Part shown: one piece after another, positions 2,734 to 33,341 of the stretch
Layout: each line of letters opens with the position of its first letter
Position numbering within the stretch: the stretch's first letter is position 1
Assembly (NCBI RefSeq): GCF_003634275.1
Contig: NZ_RBWY01000003.1
Span: 186,001-250,000 of the forward strand
Length of the DNA: 64,000 nucleotides
Origin: Orbus hercynius
GTDB lineage: Bacteria > Pseudomonadota > Gammaproteobacteria > Enterobacterales > Orbaceae
Direction of reading: 5' to 3'
Program-made: the position numbers and the translations under genes
The notes under the pieces: model-generated
Seen by the model: only the letters and a program-made list of their open reading frames with translations
Databases searched by the model: none
What the model was told of the DNA's origin: nothing

Positions 2734-5700
2734 ATCAGTCTGATGAACTGAATCTTTTTTCGTTACCGCTAATTGGGCGCTCACTTATTGAAGCGTCAGC
2801 GGGGACGGGGAAAACTTATTCTTTAGCGTTTATTTATTTACGTCTGTTACTCGGTATTGGTCAGCATGGTGATTTGCGGCCTTTGTCGGTTGACGAAATT
2901 TTGGTGGTTACTTTTACGAAAGCGGCAACCGAAGAATTACGTTATCGTATTCGGCAAAATATCCATCAATTACGCCTAGCTTGTGTACAAGGGTATCATC
3001 AAGACGATGACTATCAACAATTAATCCATCTAATTGAAGATAAAAACCAAGCTTTAAAACGCTTAACTTATGCTGAACAAAGCATGGATGAGGCGGCAAT
3101 TTTTACCATTCATGGCTTTTGCCAGCGTATATTAACGACGTATGCGTTTGAAGCGGGTATTTTATTTAATCAAACCTTAGTAAAAGATGAAAGTTCGCTC
3201 TACCTGCAAGTGGTGAGTGATTTTTGGCGCACTTATTTTACCCCCTTACCCGAAGATATTGCGCGCATGATTTGGGTGTATTGGGCGGATCCGAACGCCT
3301 TATTAGATGATATTTCGCTTTATCTTAACCAGCCTTTGCCGGATAACATTCATGTGTCGTCTGAACCGTTGGGGCAACGTATTGAACTGTTTCATCAACA
3401 AGCCATCAGCCAAATTGAAGCCATTAAGCAGCAGTGGTTAGCGGCTGTTGCTGATTTGGCGCCGATTATTGTCAGTTCAGGCGTGAGTAAGCGCTCGTAC
3501 AGTAAAGCTAATTTACCCAGATGGTTAGATAGCGTGACATGCTGGGCGCAGTTACCTACCGTTGATTATGCTATTGTTGATGAGCTGGCTAAATTCAGTC
3601 AGGCTGAGCTAGATAGCAAAACGGACGATAATAAGATGGCACCAGCCCATGCGATATTCCTTGAGATTCAACAATTTTTAACGCAGCACTTTAGCCTGCG
3701 TGATCATATTTTATTTGATATTGTCAACATGGTGGCAAAGCTGATTGATAAGCAAAAGCAGCATTTGTCTCAAATGGGTTTTAATGATTTAATTAACCAT
3801 CTTCATCATGCGTTATCAACCGATAAGAGCAACGTTTTAGCCGAGCAGATCATGCGGCAGTACCCAGCTGCAATGATTGATGAGTTTCAAGATACCGACC
3901 CGATTCAATACCAAATTTTTAACGCGATTTATCGCGATAGGCAGCAATCTTGCCTGCTGCTAATTGGTGATCCTAAGCAGGCGATTTATGGTTTTCGTGG
4001 CGCCGATATTTTTACCTATATTAAGGCCAAGTCGTCGGTAGATCATCAGTTTACCATGCTAACTAATTGGCGTTCTAGTGAGAGTATGGTGCAAGCGGTA
4101 AATCGTTTATTTAGTCGTAAAGCAAATCCTTTTATATTTGAGGCGATCCCCTTCGTGCCGATGAAAAGCGCGCCGAAGAATCATCACAAAGGATTGTATG
4201 TTAATCAGCAAGAAGTCGCTGCTTTGCAAGGCTATTTACTGCCGCCAGAGATTACTTCAAGTAGTGAATATTTTGACTCTTCTGCCGAGTATTGTGCTGA
4301 GCAAATTTCTACATGGTTATCACAACAGGCGTATTTCAGCGATGGTCATGATCTCAAGCCAAGGCCATTACAATCAGCGGATATTGCGATTTTAGTGCGC
4401 ACAGGCCGCGAAGCTGAAATTATTCAACAAAAACTAAACAAGCGTAATTTGAAAAGTATTTATGTTTCTAATCGCAAAAGTGTTTTTGAAACGTTAGAGG
4501 CAAGAGAAGTACTGCGGATCTTGCAAGCTGCTTTGTCGCCAACCAATGAAAGTTATGTGCGTAGCGCACTGGCAACACAGTTAGTTGGTGTGTCGATGGC
4601 AGAGCTCGACATGCTGTCAGATTCACAAGATCGCTTTGAAACGGTGATCGAAGAATTTAAAGATTATCAAGCTATTTGGCTTCGTTATGGCGTTTTAGTA
4701 ATGCTGCGTCGATTGATGAACCGTCGTCATCTTGCGGAAAATTTATTACGTTATCACGATGGTGAACGCATTATTACCAACTTCATGCATTTGGGCGAGT
4801 TATTGCAAGAAATTGCGCAAGATATTGATACGCCTTATGGCATTATTCGTTGGTTAACCAAGCAAATCAATGAGCCCGATCGCAATTTGGACAATCATGA
4901 ACAGCGCTTAGAAAGTGATGAGAACTTAATCAATATTATTACGATTCATAAATCAAAAGGGCTTGAGTATCCAATTGTTTTTCTACCTTTTATCGGTTCA
5001 TATCGGGAGTCCGATAGTGTGATTTATCACGATCGTCAGAGCTATCAAGTCAACTATGCTTATCGTCTCTCGCCAGAAATTAAAGCATTAATTGAGCAAG
5101 AGCGTTTGGCTGAAGATTTACGCTTATTATATGTTGCATTAACCCGTTCAATATATCATTGTAGTTTTGGGCTTGCGGGCATAAAAAGAGGTAATAGCCG
5201 CGAACTGACGCTAAAGCACTCTGCTATTGGCTATTTACTCTCAGAGCCCGATGAGAACGATTATTCCGCACTTGAGAAACAAGTGCAACAAGTCACCCAT
5301 ATTGATAATCCAATTATCGCACTGCCCGTGCCGCTATCGTCAGTCAAAGCTAAAAAGCACAGCGCGAGCGAACATTTGGCTGCCAATCGATTTAAGCGGC
5401 AGCTTGATAGTAGTTGGCGCGTGACCAGCTATTCGGGGTTATTGCACTCGACACACTACGATGACAATCAAGCGACTGAATTTTTGCTAGACAGACTACC
5501 TGCTTTTGATAGTGAAGTTTTGCAAGAGCGTATTGAGCGTGATGAATCGTTAATCACGATCGATAGTCAATCGGTAATTTATGATATCCACCATTTCCCC
5601 AAAGGGGCAATTGTGGGTACGCTTTTGCATGAATGCTTTGAAAATAGTGACTTTACCCAGCCTGATAGCACGGCTGTTGCCGCGCAGCTAATCACGAAAT

Positions 5701-10730: not shown

Positions 10731-10750
10731 TACTGTATATAATCACAATA
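10731..10750. promoter_or_regulatory. LexA (SOS) box 1 upstream of lexA
   Basis: TACTGTATATAATCACAATA has CTGT-N8-ACAA, one mismatch from the CTGT-N8-ACAG consensus. It is the first of two overlapping boxes in front of lexA, the same tandem arrangement as the E. coli lexA promoter. Confidence 0.8.
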
Positions 10751-10769
10751 TATGTATAAATAGACAGGA
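10750..10769. promoter_or_regulatory. LexA (SOS) box 2 upstream of lexA
   Basis: The core is ATGT-ATAAATAG-ACAG (10752-10767), one mismatch from consensus. It ends 7 bp before the lexA ATG, so bound LexA would block both transcription and start-site access. Confidence 0.8.
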
Positions 10770-10776
10770 TTTTAGT

Positions 10777-11391
10777 ATGAAGCCACTTACAGAGCGACAG
10801 CAGCAAATTTATGATTTAATTAAAGCCCATATCCATTCAACGGGCATGCCACCCACTCGTGCCGAAATTGCTAACCAACTTGGATTCCGCTCTGCGAATG
10901 CTGCTGAAGAGCACCTAAAAGCATTGGCACGTAAAGGGGCGATTGAGATGATCGCAGGATCATCTCGTGGTATTCGATTATTACTCGAAGAAGACGCCGA
11001 AGAAGGACTACCGCTAATTGGCCGTGTTGCCGCGGGATCGCCAATTTTAGCTCAAGAGCATATTGAAGGGTATTATCAAGTTGATCCGAGTTTGTTTAAA
11101 CCTTGTGCTGATTTTTTGCTGCGTGTGAATGGGATGTCAATGAAAGATATCGGCATTTTGGATGGTGACTTGTTAGCGGTGCATAAAACTCAAGAGGTTA
11201 GAAATGGGCAAGTTATTGTTGCAAGAATTGGCGAAGAGGTGACAGTAAAACGATTGGAAAGAAAAGGTGCAAAAGTTCGTTTAATCGCTGAAAATGGTGA
11301 TTTTAGTCCTATTGATGTTAATCTACAAACACAAGAATTTTCGATCGAAGGATTAGCTGTTGGAGTCATTCGTAACGGAACATGGATGTAA
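10777..11391 (+). CDS. lexA: LexA, SOS response repressor
   Basis: A 204-residue SOS repressor and self-cleaving protease. The N-terminal winged helix spans residues 1-70, with PPTRAEIAQ-like [13 protein letters not shown]. The cleavage site VAAG puts Ala86-Gly87 in place of E. coli 84-85. The catalytic dyad is Ser121 (GMSMKD) and Lys158 (VTVKR). I chose the ATG at 10777 because it gives the family length (E. coli 202) and leaves the two LexA boxes upstream. A longer in-frame reading from 10690 would place the boxes inside the gene. It is autoregulated. The small membrane-protein gene 64 bp downstream lies before the next terminator, so it is probably cotranscribed. Confidence 0.97.
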
Positions 11392-26132: not shown

Positions 26133-27878
26133 ATGGAACAGATTCAAAACCGATTATTTTTTCAAAAATTATTTAAATGGATACCTGGGCTTGAAAATTT
26201 TTTCAATTATCGTAAAGAGTACTTAAGTTACGATATTCGAGCGGGTTTGTCTGTTGCGGCTGTTGCTTTACCTGTTTCAATAGCTTACGCTGAATTAACC
26301 GGTGTTGGTGCAATTGCAGGTCTTTATTCTACGATCTTACCATTGATTGCTTATGCGTTATTTGGTTCTTCCAAGCAGCTCATTGTCGGACCTGATACGG
26401 CAACGTGTGCGGTAGTTGCCGCTGTTGTCATGCCTTTAGCGCTTGATAATCCAGTGTTAAGATGGCAATTAGTGATTATCATGACGATTATGATCGGTAT
26501 ATGGTGTTTGATTGCAGGTAAACTTCGCCTTGGGGCATTAGCTGACCTACTTAGTCGACCTATTTTAATCGGTTTATTAAACGGCATATCAATTACCATT
26601 ATTGTTGATCAATTTGCTAAAGTTTGTGGTTTTAATTACGACTATGCCAATTTATTTCAACGCGTAATTTATATACCGTTTAAAATACCAGATATGCACA
26701 TTGTCACTGTGATTATTTCCATTGTGACACTACTTTTATTAATTACGATCAAAAAATTTCGTCCGCGCTGGCCTGCACCATTAATTGTCGTGGTTTTAAT
26801 GACAATTGCTTCGTGGCTAATTGGTTTTGATCAATATCACGTCAAAATTATTGGTCAATTTAGCAATGAAATGATCCCATTTTCGTCATGGGTGGATTTT
26901 GATCCCGGACTGATGAGTGAATTAGTGGTACCTTCAGTTAACATTGCAGTTATCTGTTTTGTCAGCATGATGATAACCGTACGTAGCTTTGCTGCTAAAA
27001 ATAATTATGATACTGATGCTGATACTGAGTTTAAAGCGCTCGGTATTGCAAACATTGTTGCAGGCTTATCAAATGGATTTGTTGTAAGTGGCACATCATC
27101 ACGAACGGCGGTAAATGATGTTAATAGCGGAAAAACCCAGCTCGTGTCAATTATTGCCGCGGGCACAATCGCATTAGTGGTATTCTTTTTATTATCACCA
27201 TTACAGTATATTCCAACCGCTGTACTTGGGATCATTTTAATTTATTCTTCTTGGTCTTTAATTGATATCCACTCTATCGCTCGATTTTTTAAACTGAATC
27301 GCGATGCTTTTTATCTGAGTCTTGTGACTTTTATTGCCGTTTTACTGATTGGGATCATTCCCGGCATGGCTTTATCGGTTTTACTGGGGTTATTTTTATT
27401 TTTAAGAACCGTGTTTAGACCATCTGATCAATTATTGGGTGTTGATGGTGATGGACGAATTCATTCATTAAGTAATAACGTCACACCCATTGATAATGTT
27501 ATTATGTACCGTTTTAATTCGCCACTGACTTATTTTAATATTGCTTACTTTAAAAAACGTTTAGTGTCACTCGTGGATGAATCCCATCATCAAGTCAACT
27601 ATGTGATTGTCGATGCGATTCCTTGTTTTACTTACCAAGATGTCAGTGTATTACTCGGTATTGAAGAGTTGGTTAAAGCATTGAAAGTACGCAATACCAT
27701 TTTAATTCTTGCCGGACGGCGTAAAACCTTAAAACGTTGGTTTAAAGATATGAATATTCATATGGATAAAGCGTATATTGAATTTGCCTATGATCTTTAT
27801 TTTGCCGTTAAGTCAGTACAAAGTAAGGAACATATGGCTGATTTGGAGGATGCAGATGAGTCGAACAATGAAAATTGA
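26133..27878 (+). CDS. SulP/SLC26-family anion transporter with STAS domain
   Basis: A 581-residue inner-membrane transporter. About 10-12 hydrophobic helices occupy residues 25-430, including the helix-1 family motif AGLSVAAVALPVSIAYAEL. A C-terminal cytoplasmic STAS domain spans roughly 450-565. The family carries sulfate, bicarbonate or dicarboxylates; the substrate here is not determined. In some bacteria SulP proteins supply bicarbonate, in E. coli YchM/DauA carries C4-dicarboxylates. Its 3' end overlaps yfaY by 23 nt, and pmbA ends 10 bp upstream. Confidence 0.92.
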   Translation: MEQIQNRLFFQKLFKWIPGLENFFNYRKEYLSYDIRAGLSVAAVALPVSIAYAELTGVGAIAGLYSTILPLIAYALFGSSKQLIVGPDTATCAVVAAVVMPLALDNPVLRWQLVIIMTIMIGIWCLIAGKLRLGALADLLSRPILIGLLNGISITIIVDQFAKVCGFNYDYANLFQRVIYIPFKIPDMHIVTVIISIVTLLLLITIKKFRPRWPAPLIVVVLMTIASWLIGFDQYHVKIIGQFSNEMIPFSSWVDFDPGLMSELVVPSVNIAVICFVSMMITVRSFAAKNNYDTDADTEFKALGIANIVAGLSNGFVVSGTSSRTAVNDVNSGKTQLVSIIAAGTIALVVFFLLSPLQYIPTAVLGIILIYSSWSLIDIHSIARFFKLNRDAFYLSLVTFIAVLLIGIIPGMALSVLLGLFLFLRTVFRPSDQLLGVDGDGRIHSLSNNVTPIDNVIMYRFNSPLTYFNIAYFKKRLVSLVDESHHQVNYVIVDAIPCFTYQDVSVLLGIEELVKALKVRNTILILAGRRKTLKRWFKDMNIHMDKAYIEFAYDLYFAVKSVQSKEHMADLEDADESNNEN

Positions 27879-29055
27879 GATGGTGAGTACCGGTGATGAA
27901 GTTCTGTATGGGCAGATAACAGACACTAATGCGGCCTGGTTATCTGACTTTTTATTTCAGCAAGGTTTTTTAGTTTCATCACGGTTTACGGTTGGCGATG
28001 ATCTGACGCAATTAATTCATACACTACAAACACGTAGTAAAGAGAACGATATTCTAATTGTCAATGGTGGACTTGGACCAACTAGTGATGACTTGACTGC
28101 TTTAGCGGCGGCTAAGGCAAATAATGATGAGCTTATCTTGCATCAAGAATGGGTTGCCAAGATGGAGCAATATTTTGCATGTCGTGGTAATAATATGTCA
28201 CCGAAAAATTTAAAGCAGGCTATGTTACCTGCCAGTGCCACATTAGTGGATAACTCGGTTGGCACTGCGTGTGGATTTAGAATGGTGATGAATGGCTGCC
28301 ACCTATTTTTTACGCCAGGCGTGCCATTTGAATTTCAAGAGATGGTTAAGACGCAGATTCTACCAGAGATTCGTCAATTATTTCCAGATGTTGATAAACC
28401 ACTTTGTTACCGATTGACTACAATGGGTCGCAGTGAAAGTGATTTAGCTAGTGAGATCGAGCAAAGGTTATCCATCCCAGCAAATATTAATGTAGGTTAT
28501 CGCTCAGCGATGCCAATTATTGAATTAAAATTGACCGCGAGGCAGTCATTACAAGCGCAAATGAATTCACTATGGGCAGAATTAGCTTCGCTAGTGAGCG
28601 ATAATTTGCTTTATGAAGGTACGATAGGTCTGGCGCGACTCGTTTCAACATTATTAAAGCAGCAGTCGCTGCAGCTGCTTGTCCTGACTGATAAATTAGC
28701 GGCAGCGGTTGTTTCTCAGTTATATGATGCCGATGCACCACTTATCAAAGCGGAAATATTCGGCGATAACGATCCGCTTAATGCTCAAATCTTAACCTGG
28801 CAAATGCATTATCCACATGCGATCATACTTAGTCTAACGGGCTTTAGTGCTGAAGAACCCATATTTACGTTACAACTCATCACACCTAAACAAGCATACC
28901 ATTACACCTTGAAGTATACCGGTCGAATTCATAATAATCAGATTCAGCAGGAGATATTTTCCGCCGTTGGACTTGATGCTCTCAGACGTTATTTAACGCA
29001 GCAGCCATTAGTGGGGCCAAATATTTGGCTAGACGTTATCGAAGCGGGTAAATAG
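27856..29055 (+). CDS. yfaY: YfaY, CinA-like nicotinamide-nucleotide amidase family protein
   Basis: A 399-residue CinA-family protein close to E. coli YfaY (400). The N-terminal MoCF-like domain carries STGDEVLYGQITDTNAAW and VNGGLGPTSDDLTALAA. The C-terminal region is diverged from the active PncC-type deamidase domain, as in YfaY, so NMN deamidase activity is doubtful. The ATG at 27856 has GGAGG six bases upstream; an in-frame reading from 27778 lies within the SulP gene and was rejected. It overlaps SulP by 23 nt. Confidence 0.9.
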   Translation: MSRTMKIEMVSTGDEVLYGQITDTNAAWLSDFLFQQGFLVSSRFTVGDDLTQLIHTLQTRSKENDILIVNGGLGPTSDDLTALAAAKANNDELILHQEWVAKMEQYFACRGNNMSPKNLKQAMLPASATLVDNSVGTACGFRMVMNGCHLFFTPGVPFEFQEMVKTQILPEIRQLFPDVDKPLCYRLTTMGRSESDLASEIEQRLSIPANINVGYRSAMPIIELKLTARQSLQAQMNSLWAELASLVSDNLLYEGTIGLARLVSTLLKQQSLQLLVLTDKLAAAVVSQLYDADAPLIKAEIFGDNDPLNAQILTWQMHYPHAIILSLTGFSAEEPIFTLQLITPKQAYHYTLKYTGRIHNNQIQQEIFSAVGLDALRRYLTQQPLVGPNIWLDVIEAGK

Positions 29056-29125: not shown

Positions 29126-29170
29126 GTGACTTTTGTTTGTTGATTTAATATACTGTTGTTATATACAGTA
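29126..29170 (+). promoter_or_regulatory. SOS-controlled promoter with consensus LexA box for the radical SAM operon
   Basis: TACTGTTGTTATATACAGTA (29151-29170) is TACTGT-N8-ACAGTA, a full match to the gammaproteobacterial LexA consensus including the flanks. It overlaps a promoter: -35-like GTGACT (29126-29131), 17 nt, -10 TATACT (29149-29154). Bound LexA would therefore cover the -10 and start point. The box ends 13 bp before the ATG at 29184. Confidence 0.9.
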
Positions 29171-29183
29171 TATTGGAGTTGAG

Positions 29184-30446
29184 ATGATGAAAGATAGCAC
29201 CATGAATAAACTCGAAATTCTAGCTGAATCGGCTAAATACGATGTCTCTTGTGCATCAAGCGGAACAACACGTAAGAACGCGCACGGTGGTATTGGTAGT
29301 GCGAATGGCTGGGGAATTTGCCATAGCTATACGGCCGATGGGCGATGTGTTTCATTATTAAAAATAATGCTTACAAACTTTTGTTTATACGACTGTGCTT
29401 ATTGCATTAATCGTCGCAGTAATGATATTCGGCGAGCGGCATTTTCGCCTAAAGAACTGACTGAACTCACTATTGAATTTTATCGTCGTAACTATATTGA
29501 AGGGTTGTTTTTAAGCTCAGGCATTATCAAGAACGCTGATCATACTATGGAAAGGATGCTCAGAGTTGTTAAAGATTTACGTACAGTTCATCAATTTAAT
29601 GGTTATATCCATATGAAAGCCATCCCAGGCGCTAGCAGTGAATTGATCTATCAAGCCGGGCTTTATGCTGATAGGTTAAGTGTCAACCTTGAAATTGCAA
29701 CAGAGTCAAATTTACAACGCTTGGCGCCTGAAAAAGATCATCAGAGTATTTATTTACCAATGCGCCATATTCAGCAGCATTTAATGGAAAATAAAGATGC
29801 CCGTAAAAAATATCGCCATGCCCCGCAGTTTGCATCGGCAGGGCAGAGCACGCAAATTATTGTGGGCGCAACGGATGAAACGGATCACCAGATTTTGGCA
29901 TTGAGCGCTAAATTATATAAACGGCCAAGTATGAAACGCGTCTATTATTCAGGGTTTATTCCGGTAAATGGTTATGACAAACGTCTACCGGTGGTCAAAG
30001 ATGTGCCCCGTATGCGTGAAAATCGGCTTTATCAGGCTGATTGGTTACTGCGTTTTTACCATTTTGATGTGAATGAGATTGTTAATGATCAGCACCAAGA
30101 TCTCGACTTAGATATGGATCCTAAATTAAGCTGGGCAATACGTAACCCACAGTTTTTCCCTGTTGATATCAACCGTGCGAGTTATGAACAGATATTGCGC
30201 GTTCCAGGAATTGGCATTAAATCGGCAAAATTAATCGTATCTGCACGTAAGCACAGTAAGCTCAATCTTGATGTTTTAAAACGAATCGGTGTTGTACTAA
30301 AAAGAGCTCGGTTTTTTATTGTATGCAGTGAGATGCGATCATTTAAATTCGTGCAGTCATCGGAGGCGTTTATTCGTTTATCCCTGCAAGAAGCCCCAGC
30401 CTTGGGAGCAATACCCCAACAACAACTATCAATGTCATTAGAGTAG
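29184..30446 (+). CDS. Putative DNA modification/repair radical SAM protein (TIGR03916 type)
   Basis: A 420-residue radical SAM enzyme. The iron-sulfur motif CX3CX2C is Cys67, Cys71 and Cys74 (NFCLYDCAYC). A helix-hairpin-helix DNA-binding motif, VPGIGIKSAKLI, lies near residues 337-350, as expected for a nucleic-acid-targeting protein. The family is known as a radical SAM protein genetically linked to a uracil-DNA-glycosylase-like protein; its reaction is unknown. The ATG at 29184 has GGAG five bases upstream; a longer reading from 29133 would run through the promoter and LexA box. The partner gene follows by 7 bp. SOS induction is inferred from the LexA box. Confidence 0.9.
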   Translation: MMKDSTMNKLEILAESAKYDVSCASSGTTRKNAHGGIGSANGWGICHSYTADGRCVSLLKIMLTNFCLYDCAYCINRRSNDIRRAAFSPKELTELTIEFYRRNYIEGLFLSSGIIKNADHTMERMLRVVKDLRTVHQFNGYIHMKAIPGASSELIYQAGLYADRLSVNLEIATESNLQRLAPEKDHQSIYLPMRHIQQHLMENKDARKKYRHAPQFASAGQSTQIIVGATDETDHQILALSAKLYKRPSMKRVYYSGFIPVNGYDKRLPVVKDVPRMRENRLYQADWLLRFYHFDVNEIVNDQHQDLDLDMDPKLSWAIRNPQFFPVDINRASYEQILRVPGIGIKSAKLIVSARKHSKLNLDVLKRIGVVLKRARFFIVCSEMRSFKFVQSSEAFIRLSLQEAPALGAIPQQQLSMSLE

Positions 30447-30453
30447 ATATGTT

Positions 30454-31239
30454 ATGATTATTTTTCGTTATGATGACAGTTTTGAAGGCTTACTTTCTGC
30501 GGTATTTGATGCTTTTACCTTAAAACAATGGCCACAGCAGATACTCGGACCTGATGAGGTGCAACCATTACTGAGCGAACACGTGCATCAAGTTGAAACA
30601 ACTCAAGAGAAATATTACCGCGTAAGCCAAGCGATGGAAAAACGGCTGTCGCCAGTTGTGTTAAAGCAATTGACCTATGTTTGGTTCTCACAGCAGATAG
30701 AGCGAGCAACGCTAATATTCAACTATCTCTGTAAGGTGTTTAAAAGTCGACAAGATATTACAACTAATTACGCTGATGCTGATATTTTAGCAATTCGTAA
30801 GTTAGCCAAAAAAGTCTCGCATGAACGGCATTATTTAATGATGTTTGTTCGTTTCAACGCGATAGATAATCACGGCGATAAAGTCTATTTTGCAACAGTG
30901 ACACCAAGGTACGATACCTTACCACTGACGGTCGATTTTTTTCAAGATCGCTTTGCCGATCAAAAATGGGCAATTTTTGATACGAACAGACGTTATGGTT
31001 ATGTTTATGATTTAAAGCAAAGGCATATGATGGAGATTGACGAACAAAGTGATCTTATTTGTGACGGCCATATTAATGATATTTATCTTGGTGAAAATGA
31101 AAAACAATTTCAAAAAATGTGGTATCGATATTGTCAAGCATTAACCATTAAAGAACGGATTAATCCAAAGTTACAACGGCAGTTGATGCCGGTGCGTTTT
31201 TGGCAACATTTGCCGGAAACATGGCATGATAGTCACTAA
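30454..31239 (+). CDS. TIGR03915-family putative DNA metabolism protein (DUF4130)
   Basis: A 261-residue partner of the radical SAM gene. Family hallmarks: the N-terminal YDDSFEGLLSAVFDAF, central LAKKVSHERHYLMMFVRF, and the C-terminal LQRQLMPVRFWQHLPE. In many bacteria this domain is fused to a uracil-DNA-glycosylase-superfamily domain; here the protein ends right after the TIGR03915 part, so no glycosylase domain is attached. Function is unknown; its constant pairing with the radical SAM protein suggests a joint DNA or nucleotide repair step. It starts 7 bp after its partner, so it is controlled by the same LexA-box promoter. It is convergent with recG. Confidence 0.88.
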   Translation: MIIFRYDDSFEGLLSAVFDAFTLKQWPQQILGPDEVQPLLSEHVHQVETTQEKYYRVSQAMEKRLSPVVLKQLTYVWFSQQIERATLIFNYLCKVFKSRQDITTNYADADILAIRKLAKKVSHERHYLMMFVRFNAIDNHGDKVYFATVTPRYDTLPLTVDFFQDRFADQKWAIFDTNRRYGYVYDLKQRHMMEIDEQSDLICDGHINDIYLGENEKQFQKMWYRYCQALTIKERINPKLQRQLMPVRFWQHLPETWHDSH

Positions 31240-31253
31240 CTTATTTTATGGTA

Positions 31254-33341
31254 TTACGCGTTAATATATTTGGTTTTAGCCGGTAGCCAGCTGTTAACTA
31301 GGCTAATGACTGAAGCTGGATGATTGGCAAGCATGTCGATAGAGACGGATTGTATTAGACGGATTAAATGTTGATCGCGCATTAGATCAACGACTTTAAA
31401 GTCAGCGATACCAACTTGCCTTGTACCCAATATTTCACCGCCACCACGAATTTCGAGATCTTTTTGCGCAATAACAAACCCATCATTACTGTCACGCATG
31501 ACATTTAAACGCGCTTTGGTAACTTTGCTAAGTGGCGTTTGATACATCAGCACGCAGTGTGATGCCTCGCTACCCCGTCCGACCCGTCCGCGTAATTGAT
31601 GCAGTTGTGATAGCCCAAGGCGCTCAGCATTTTCAATCACCATTAAACTTGCATTAGGTACATCGACGCCGACTTCAATAACGGTTGTGGCAACGAGTAA
31701 TTGAATGAGACCTTGTTTAAAATTTTGCATGACTGCTTGTTTTTGCGACGGTTTCATCTTGCCGTGTATTAAGCCAACGTGCACCGTCGGTAATAAAGCT
31801 TGTAGTTCTTCATAAGCCACTTCTGCGGCCTGAGCTGCAAGTATGTCTGATTCCTCAACTAATGTGCATACCCAGTACACTTGCTTACCAGATAAACATG
31901 CCTGCTCGATACGTTCAATTACTTCATAACGACGAGTATTAGGTAATACCACGGTGGTAATTGGTGTTCGGCCCGGTGGTAATTCATCGATTGTTGAGAC
32001 ATCCAGATCGGCATAGACCGTCATCGCAAGGGTTCTTGGTATTGGCGTTGCAGTCATGATCAATTGATGTGGATGAATATTGTCCTTTATGCCTTTTTCC
32101 CATAATGTTAAGCGCTGATCAACACCAAAACGGTGCTGTTCATCAATAATCACTAAGCCTAAATGAGCAAATTTAACTTGTTCAACAAAGACAGCATGTG
32201 TACCAATTAATATATCAGTTTGCCCTGCGGCCACCGCTTCGTAGCATTCTCGTTTCTTTTTAGCGGTTAATTTGCCGGAAAGCAGATTAACACTTAAGCC
32301 CAAAGGTTCGAACCAATGGCTAAAATTAATCGCATGTTGCTCGGCTAAGATTTCAGTTGGTGCCATGAGCACAACTTGTTTTTGATTTTCTAAGGCACCA
32401 AGCGCAGCAAGTGCTGCAACGAGCGTTTTGCCAGATCCCACATCACCTTGTACTAATCGCATCATCGGGATATGTTTGGCCATATCTTGCCAAATTTCTT
32501 GCACAACGCGTTGCTGCGCATTGGTGGGTGAAAAGGGTAGTGCCTGTAAAAATGGCTTAATATAGTCATTAGTCACCACACATGGCGTAGCTTGTTGACT
32601 TTGGTTATGCGATTTAGTGATTTGCATACTTAAATGATAGGCTAAAAGCTCTTCGAAAATAAGCCGTTTTTTAGCTGGATGTTCGGCAAGTTCAAGCTGA
32701 GTAATATCAACATCCAAAGGAGGCTGATGAACAATCGTTAATGATTCTTCAACACTGGGTAGAGCTTTAATAAATGCCGCAGGAATGAGCTCTGCCGATG
32801 GATTACGATTGAGCAAAGCCAGCGCCAAATGAATAAATTTGCGCAGCATGGTTTGTGTTAATCCAAAGGTTGTTGCATAAATGGGTGTGTAGCGTTCACT
32901 TTGACTATCATCAAAAGACTGTGCCGCTTCACGAATCTGTATTTGCGGGTGAATCATCTCATAATAGGTTTTACTGGCTTTAACTTCACCATAAGCTTTG
33001 ATCCATTTGCCCATCGCCATGCTTTGTTTCATGGTAGGATAAAAGTTCATAAAACGCAGCTGAATAATACCGGTTTCATCTTTGACGGTACAAATCAGCA
33101 TCCGTCTTTTAGCTTGTATCAATTCTGTTTTAATAATTTGGCCTTCAATCGTCGTATGTTCGCCAATCGATAACTGGGCAATCTGTTTTGAAGTTGAGCG
33201 ATCCTCGTAGCGCATAGGCAGATGCAAAAGTAGATCGCGAATGGTATAAATACCCAAATGATTAAATTTTTTGGCTAGTGCGTCACCAAGCCCTGGTAAG
33301 TGACTGATTGTAAGGTGGCTCAGTAATCGTTTATAGGACAT
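31254..33341 (-). CDS. recG: RecG, ATP-dependent branched-DNA helicase
   Basis: A 695-residue monomeric helicase that regresses stalled forks and processes Holliday junctions and R-loops. The N-terminal wedge/OB domain contains LPGLGDALAKKF and LPMRYEDRS. Superfamily-2 motifs are intact: Walker A GDVGSGKT near 298-306, IIDEQHRFGV, TATPIPRTLAM, and the motif VI segment QLRGRVGRG. It starts 3 bp after spoT and so is in the gmk-rpoZ-spoT-recG order. E. coli has trmH between spoT and recG; here it is missing. Confidence 0.97.
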   Translation of the reverse strand: MSYKRLLSHLTISHLPGLGDALAKKFNHLGIYTIRDLLLHLPMRYEDRSTSKQIAQLSIGEHTTIEGQIIKTELIQAKRRMLICTVKDETGIIQLRFMNFYPTMKQSMAMGKWIKAYGEVKASKTYYEMIHPQIQIREAAQSFDDSQSERYTPIYATTFGLTQTMLRKFIHLALALLNRNPSAELIPAAFIKALPSVEESLTIVHQPPLDVDITQLELAEHPAKKRLIFEELLAYHLSMQITKSHNQSQQATPCVVTNDYIKPFLQALPFSPTNAQQRVVQEIWQDMAKHIPMMRLVQGDVGSGKTLVAALAALGALENQKQVVLMAPTEILAEQHAINFSHWFEPLGLSVNLLSGKLTAKKKRECYEAVAAGQTDILIGTHAVFVEQVKFAHLGLVIIDEQHRFGVDQRLTLWEKGIKDNIHPHQLIMTATPIPRTLAMTVYADLDVSTIDELPPGRTPITTVVLPNTRRYEVIERIEQACLSGKQVYWVCTLVEESDILAAQAAEVAYEELQALLPTVHVGLIHGKMKPSQKQAVMQNFKQGLIQLLVATTVIEVGVDVPNASLMVIENAERLGLSQLHQLRGRVGRGSEASHCVLMYQTPLSKVTKARLNVMRDSNDGFVIAQKDLEIRGGGEILGTRQVGIADFKVVDLMRDQHLIRLIQSVSIDMLANHPASVISLVNSWLPAKTKYINA

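Follow-up and report, generated by a model that had tools for sequence, protein, structure and literature searches.

A conserved LexA box and a clamp-type tail mark a radical SAM/DUF4130 gene pair of Orbus hercynius as a candidate SOS DNA-repair operon

The 64,000-nucleotide stretch of the Orbus hercynius genome analysed here (the window) contains two adjacent genes on the forward strand that encode a radical S-adenosylmethionine (SAM) protein of family TIGR03916 (420 amino acids; 29184-30446; AlphaFold2 (AF2) model m0bb00f7cf22b) and a partner of family TIGR03915, which contains DUF4130 and lacks a uracil-DNA glycosylase (UDG) domain (261 amino acids; 30454-31239; AF2 model m8737291108cd). 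We suggest, with a probability of about 0.6, that the two genes form a LexA-repressed operon for an SOS-induced radical enzyme that is tethered to the sliding clamp and repairs a DNA lesion, and that the DUF4130 protein is its DNA-handling partner. Direct observations underlie this proposal: the family membership of the two proteins, the LexA box and its conservation, the gene order, the lack of a UDG domain and the conservation of cysteines and of a C-terminal tail. The most interesting of these points is the clamp-type tail, which is conserved on what is predicted to be a DNA-repair enzyme; it is new here and was absent from an earlier, sequence-only reading of the same DNA.

The family assignments made in that reading were borne out by NCBIfam, in which the radical SAM protein scores 634.6 bits for TIGR03916 (curated cut-off 343.5), the only family passed at an E-value of 0.001, and the partner 232 bits for TIGR03915 (cut-off 112.25). 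Pfam finds Radical_SAM and HHH_3 in the former (HHH_3 30.3 bits, cut-off 27; residues 326-357, 30159-30254) and DUF4130 alone in the latter (PF13566, 161.1 bits, cut-off 27). The CX3CX2C motif, the helix-hairpin-helix (HHH) and the 7-bp gap between the genes, all named in the sequence-only reading, are present as well.

The box, TACTGTTGTTATATACAGTA (TACTGT-TGTTATAT-ACAGTA on the forward strand), lies at 29151-29170 and is the sole exact match to TACTGT-N8-ACAGTA in the window, in which sites with up to two mismatches number six against 2.12 expected. It is indeed perfect, overlaps the -10-like element and ends 13 bp before the ATG at 29184, with a ribosome-binding-site-like GGAG at 29175-29178. 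The putative sigma-70 promoter (29126-29154) combines a -35-like GTGACT (29126-29131) and a -10-like TATACT (29149-29154) with 9/12 matches in a scan whose overall result was at chance level; by eye, a TTGC...TATAAT pair adjoins the box at many loci of the host's bacterial family, the Orbaceae. Across the 2.36-Mb genome, the bare core CTGT-N8-ACAG has 18 sites and its reversed control 12, and the core alone therefore proves little; several of the 18 sites lie inside reading frames, probably by chance. The full 20-mer is found at two of them only, the recA site and the site before the radical SAM gene, and similar boxes precede lexA, recA, recN, uvrD and ruvA in the same genome (all but lexA named by eye). 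The proposed regulator of the box is the product of this lexA gene (204 amino acids; 10777-11391, forward strand; PF01726, 102.2 bits). The gene is itself preceded on the same strand by two adjacent boxes (10731-10769; cores 10733-10748 and 10752-10767, each with one core mismatch), the arrangement of E. coli lexA. A further core site between ftsK-like and lolA-like frames (G000:C3:88153-88168, L019) is a possible additional SOS target.

Orthologous loci in the family argue that the box is no chance match. TIGR03916 is present in 42/44 genomes of the family, and in 39/39 once genomes below 90% completeness or above 5% contamination are set aside. All 41 further loci, and hence 42/42 with the window, have the exact core before the enzyme gene and a DUF4130 gene after it, and 15-24 bases separate the end of the core from the start codon; in a shuffled 60-base upstream region the core is expected with a probability of only ~0.00025. 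The 42 loci are related to one another and hence are not 42 independent events. Nevertheless, the mean fraction of the majority base falls from 1.00 for the half-sites to 0.78 for the spacer and 0.46-0.55 for the flanks, and flanks that drift around a constant palindrome are the mark of selection. LexA/SOS control of the pair, as the sequence-only reading had proposed, is thus well supported at the level of sequence: of the two conditions by which that reading would have been refuted, a lack of LexA boxes at orthologous loci does not apply in 42/42 cases. The constant gene order agrees with its suggestion that the two proteins act as a unit.

Outside the family, many orthologues are preceded by whichever LexA-type operator is typical of their lineage, as judged from their upstream sequences. 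A sample of 369 genomes of the class Gammaproteobacteria contained 11 with the enzyme, the host genome included, and six of the ten other loci carry CTGT-N8-ACAG (0.013 expected; the reversed pattern occurs in none). GAAC-N7-GAAC precedes the enzyme at 6/6 alphaproteobacterial loci drawn from the top plasmid-collection matches listed (0.010 expected), the copy in L200 lying up to 140 bases upstream. The 82 upstream regions from a genome scan (80 loci) and a viral contig scan (two loci) show a different picture: the gammaproteobacterial core is found in 0/82, CTAA-N5-TTAG in 16/82 (0.24 expected) and GGA-N5-TCC in 4/82 (1.26 expected), with three copies each in L149, L152 and L160. CTAA-N5-TTAG and GGA-N5-TCC are both described as SOS motifs of Bacteroidetes in the part of the source available to us (PMC8565304). 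GGA-N5-TTC gave no signal (5/82 versus 2.04 expected), and four clostridial or fusobacterial loci have no exact GAAC-N4-GTTC, with looser forms in L080 and L083. An enzyme that several unrelated lineages keep behind LexA-type operators of their own, and that was apparently re-captured by a new LexA after horizontal transfer, must be useful in DNA damage.

The C-terminal tail suggests where such an enzyme could act. Residues 414-419 of 420 read QLSMSL (30423-30440, forward strand), which fits the longer QLxLxL/F form of the beta-clamp-binding motif; the tail (residues 404-420) has a predicted local distance difference test (pLDDT) score below 50 in the AF2 model and is probably flexible. Variants such as QLSLF, QLNLF, QLTLDF and QLVMGW end the homologues after a linker of variable sequence. 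A wide pattern that covers these forms is found within the last 20 residues of 135/141 enzymes, versus 1/519 control open reading frames (ORFs) and 0/131 partners, and within the last 30 residues of 137/141 enzymes versus 3/450 controls; elsewhere in the enzyme, the last 60 residues excluded, it occurs in only 2/141 proteins. The controls are other ORFs of at least 200 amino acids from the same DNA, 519 with the RecJ loci and 450 without them, and two of 143 enzymes (L115 and L165) are incomplete and stand outside the 141. Among the six misses in the last 20 residues, QLSLF starts 24 residues from the end in L127 and QLSFF 29 residues from the end in L083, and the other four have QGSLF (L066), QQAFDF (L070), QQTFDF (L073) and QTVLIF (L102). 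Narrower patterns point the same way, with the strict QL[SD]LF in the last 20 residues of 18/141 enzymes and QLxLF in those of 41/141, both against 0/450 controls. An earlier strict tail pattern matched 92/141 where shuffled tails gave 2.5 on average, missing 33 of the 42 family members chiefly owing to a final W in their tails, and a loose one matched 134/141 against 18.3. Within the host genome, which supplies positive controls, a DinB-like protein ends in QLLLTL, a UmuC-like protein contains QFDLF and MutS contains QLSLM (by family match and eye). Among the papers listed by the literature searches, none reports a clamp motif in the TIGR03916 family or joins radical SAM with clamp binding as far as the listings go. 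The clamp-like tail offers a concrete handle on where the enzyme acts.

A second new feature is a set of six invariant cysteines, three of them beyond CX3CX2C. C67, C71 and C74 of the radical SAM motif (29382-29405) together with C23, C46 and C55 and the neighbouring H47 (29250-29348) are invariant in 141/141 homologues. Alignment A1 comprises 16 chosen enzymes, and A3 comprises 72 of the 80 allowed complete loci plus the window. The three additional cysteines, all N-terminal of the motif, suggest that the enzyme has another iron-sulfur cluster or a catalytic thiol. In its AF2 model (pLDDT 79.1) the enzyme contains the radical SAM barrel, with residues 24-45 and 47-55 modelled poorly, and in VIA-align its closest solved structures are lipoyl synthase (4u0o; Z 15.9, root-mean-square deviation (rmsd) 3.5, 227 residues aligned) and, effectively tied, HydE (7o1o; Z 15.8, rmsd 2.5, 212 aligned). 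Spore photoproduct lyase is not among the 50 VIA-align rows listed for the enzyme, which excludes nothing. By sequence, an HHH segment matches 2duy at an E-value of 0.003 and three other solved structures match at 0.5 or worse.

The DUF4130 partner is modelled with higher confidence (pLDDT 92.7). Compared by sequence with solved structures it finds nothing better than an E-value of 0.27, and Foldseek on the model gives 8a8k as the best match (E-value 1.2e-3) and none at 0.001 or better. In VIA-align the top row is again 8a8k, a PAP phosphatase (Z 8.9, rmsd 5.5, 198 aligned), with RecJ/Cdc45 rows at Z up to 7.8; 49 of the 50 rows listed are presumably DHH-type proteins. The DHH metal-binding motif is missing, as none of the columns that the window protein occupies has a histidine shared by more than 70% of 131 partners. 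A degenerate DHH-like (RecJ/Cdc45-like) fold of DUF4130, new here, is therefore a lead and not a result.

In 73 of the 82 loci of the genome and viral scans a partner lies on the enzyme's strand, within 100 bp in 56, at 100-700 bp in 11 and further away in six. These 73 and the window protein make up alignment A2, in which 67/74 are Bacteroidota by title and the rest come from Acinetobacter, Moraxella, Fibrobacter, a deltaproteobacterium and one unnamed bacterium; DUF4130 is matched in 74/74 and the UDG family PF03167 in 0/74. The sequence-only reading was correct that the partner here has no glycosylase domain, and the absence is not peculiar to the host genome. The glycosylase-free form prevails in the Bacteroidota loci examined and recurs in Acinetobacter, Clostridia and Fusobacterium. 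UDG sequence was detected at 5/142 loci scanned (L066, L069, L070, L073 and L081; family loci with ~1.5 kb of flank), four of them among the ten other gammaproteobacterial loci, and L197, L199 and L201 have further partners annotated as UdgX. In L197 (plasmid p2 of Azospirillum sp. TSA2s) the radical SAM and UdgX genes are separated by a TnpB-family gene (3258-4400). The separate UDG-like partner that the sequence-only reading had proposed to look for was not found, as there is no TIGR03914-type UDG in the host genome or in 12/12 relatives from five genera, and the sole PF03167 match in the host genome is an ordinary Ung with GQDPYH on another contig. Given that most loci examined lack a glycosylase domain, uracil repair is arguably not the core function and merits re-examination.

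The distribution of the enzyme suggests how the pair came under local control. The genome scan covers the best 80 of at least 590 relatives, possibly leaving out records near the host genome, and these 80 are mostly Bacteroidota. Relatives occur in 158 plasmid-collection records (some of them chromosome-sized) and in 10 and 11 phage-collection records; the best plasmid-collection matches are to Bacteroidales (65-68%), followed by Acinetobacter (59%). A viral contig scan with two short peptide patterns confirmed two relatives, and E. coli genomes gave no blastn match. In a midpoint-rooted tree of 76 enzymes cut to 400 residues each, among them 15/42 family members and 41/79 complete genome-scan loci, the family is a single clade (100/97), placed with Bacteroidales inside a 37-row group (100/97); other Bacteroidales rows lie outside this group, other Gammaproteobacteria are distant and the Acinetobacter copies (L077, L133 and L137) group with Bacteroidota. 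On the simplest reading, this sequence tree suggests that the gene was acquired from Bacteroidales and then brought under the control of the local LexA. An enzyme from a deltaproteobacterial metagenome-assembled genome (L127, 1701-3113) joins the family clade (93/90) on a long branch, possibly reflecting misbinning. The Acinetobacter pair lacks a UDG and a recognised LexA-type operator (none of the operators tried in L133 and L137, none recognised by eye in L077), and another damage regulator may act there.

Combining these data, we suggest the following sequence of events: (i) DNA damage would lead to LexA cleavage and free the promoter at 29126-29154, (ii) the radical SAM enzyme would cleave SAM by means of a [4Fe-4S] cluster held by CX3CX2C, with C23, C46 and C55 probably providing either the ligands of another iron-sulfur cluster or a catalytic residue, and (iii) the enzyme would bind DNA through its HHH motif and dock on the beta sliding clamp with its QLxLxF-type tail, and would therefore act at replication forks or repair patches. 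DUF4130 would contact DNA and recognise or present the damaged nucleotide, perhaps by means of a RecJ/Cdc45-like fold with no conserved metal site; in Alphaproteobacteria and some Gammaproteobacteria it appears fused to a uracil-binding UdgX domain. By analogy with spore photoproduct lyase, the chemistry is likely to reverse or convert a base lesion by a radical route. A fuller version, in which a clamp-riding radical repair enzyme of the SOS response works at the fork with a RecJ/Cdc45-like partner, the glycosylase-free pair is the core, the uracil-binding domain was added later and the UDG name used in print for the Bacteroidetes operon arose from naming only, is put forward tentatively, at somewhat less than even odds.

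Several points weigh against the repair operon proposed here. Four of the ten other gammaproteobacterial loci (L065, L066, L068 and L070) lack the exact core, L070 being one base off and the other three having nothing within one mismatch, and most Bacteroidales promoters among the 82 upstream regions contain none of the known SOS operators tried, from which it follows that SOS control is widespread and not universal. No partner was detected at 9/82 scanned loci, two of which (L115 and L165) are cut short by a contig end within the enzyme gene. At four Prevotella loci (L109, L112, L114 and L116) the enzyme is present and no partner was found in ~2.9-3.4 kb downstream, and the gene may be elsewhere or lost. 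The best Z of DUF4130, 8.9, is near the level that the tool calls common, and a profile comparison with RecJ gave no support (E-value 0.4), leaving the DHH-like fold to structure only. The wide tail pattern was written after the tails had been inspected, the homologues are interrelated and the control ORFs are mechanical calls. Finally, the proposal as a whole builds on sequences and models, and expression, binding and activity are all inferred.

Four other explanations were considered. The enzyme could modify undamaged DNA or nucleotides during the SOS response, for instance for marking or protection, in agreement with the NCBI family name, putative DNA modification/repair radical SAM protein, and with the presence of lipoyl synthase, which donates sulfur from an auxiliary cluster, among the closest solved radical SAM folds. 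The clamp-like tail and the damage-type regulation suit repair better, however, and the tie with HydE at Z 15.8 indicates that the likeness to lipoyl synthase is one of the barrel in general. Of the two functions offered by the sequence-only reading, repair or DNA modification, the former suits the data better and the latter is the less probable. Alternatively, the pair could work in uracil base excision with a uracil-DNA glycosylase, here Ung in trans. The UdgX fusions and partners annotated in Alphaproteobacteria, the UDG sequence at other gammaproteobacterial loci and a published description of such an operon as a UDG system (PMC8565304, as far as available) speak for this model. Given that 74/74 scanned partners are without a UDG domain, that only 5/142 loci hold UDG-like sequence and that TIGR03914 is absent from the host genome and its 12 relatives, with Ung on another contig, we regard it as improbable.

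The tail, in turn, could be a hydrophobic packing element or a degradation signal, an interpretation that draws on the post hoc origin of the wide pattern and on the low confidence of the tail in the model. Its fit to the tail of the DinB-like protein of the same genome, the control counts of 1/519 and 0/450 and its agreement with the published consensus QL[S/D]LF, described as often terminal in the part of the source available (PMC3716654), leave little room for this interpretation. Least probable is a function in phage defence or in a mobile element that has borrowed an SOS box. The plasmid- and phage-collection records and the transfer suggested by the tree could be taken in its favour; against it are the presence in 39/39 near-complete family genomes, the lack of a match in the PADLOC defence library at an E-value of 0.01, the count of only two relatives in the pattern-limited viral contig scan and the window neighbours, which by eye are housekeeping genes. 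The gene pair is flanked by a cinA-like gene (27778-29055) and a convergent recG (31254-33341), both named by eye. Among 41 other loci of the family with ~1.5 kb of flank, cinA-like sequence was seen in three and recG in five, and the genomic position seemingly is not generally kept.

The recurrence of the pair in many bacteria under different damage-response switches suggests a real, uncharacterised DNA repair enzyme, and to our knowledge radical SAM chemistry is rare among DNA-repair enzymes, the established example being spore photoproduct lyase. The pair is not undescribed, as the sequence-only reading had it. With COG4277 presumed to be the TIGR03916 family, the two-gene COG1573-COG4277 operon of Bacteroidetes is very probably this pair. 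In the part of the report available, comparative genomics found this operon to be SOS-regulated and described it as a UDG system, and such regulation is also cited for Verrucomicrobia and Alphaproteobacteria, including Caulobacter (PMC8565304). As early as 2013, DUF4130 was predicted to be an enzyme with a role in mutagenesis and was associated with SplB-like radical SAM proteins and with UDGs in an SOS setting (PMC3765255, seen in part). LexA control of an unspecified radical SAM protein, whose membership in this family is uncertain, is mentioned for Streptomyces and other bacteria in the sections available of two further papers (PMC9380542, PMC7739468). In the literature searched, no paper names TIGR03915 or TIGR03916, and the enzyme's names were not found in PMC12700426 or PMC4689574.

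The COG1573-COG4277 operon resembles the pair in having two genes and LexA-type operators, its CTAA-N5-TTAG and GGA-N5-TCC motifs being found before Bacteroidota orthologues. It differs in being described with a glycosylase, whereas the pair here and the Bacteroidota partners examined have no UDG domain, and the accessible part of the description makes no mention of a clamp tail (PMC8565304). Since the Bacteroidota partners lack the domain, the published UDG label probably reflects the name of an orthologous group; the UDG domain in the partner that characterises a UDG-type operon is likewise missing from the pair in the window. The fusions of TIGR03915 to UdgX that accompany TIGR03916, as in Rhizobium leguminosarum (L081), share the enzyme family, the gene order and an alignable DUF4130, but the L081 partner has ~484 amino acids with a C-terminal UDG-like domain and the partner here 261 without it. 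Pol IV and UmuC are SOS proteins with clamp motifs of the QLxLx type, and differ from the enzyme in being polymerases and not radical enzymes. An extreme C-terminal position of the motif is reported for Pol II and Pol IV in the part of the source available (PMC3716654). SplB, or spore photoproduct lyase, is a radical SAM DNA repair enzyme for which LexA control is reported in Alpha- and Betaproteobacteria in the available text (PMC3323433), as predicted for the pair here; unlike it, the enzyme of the pair belongs to TIGR03916 and combines its radical SAM domain with extra cysteines, an HHH motif and a clamp-like tail.

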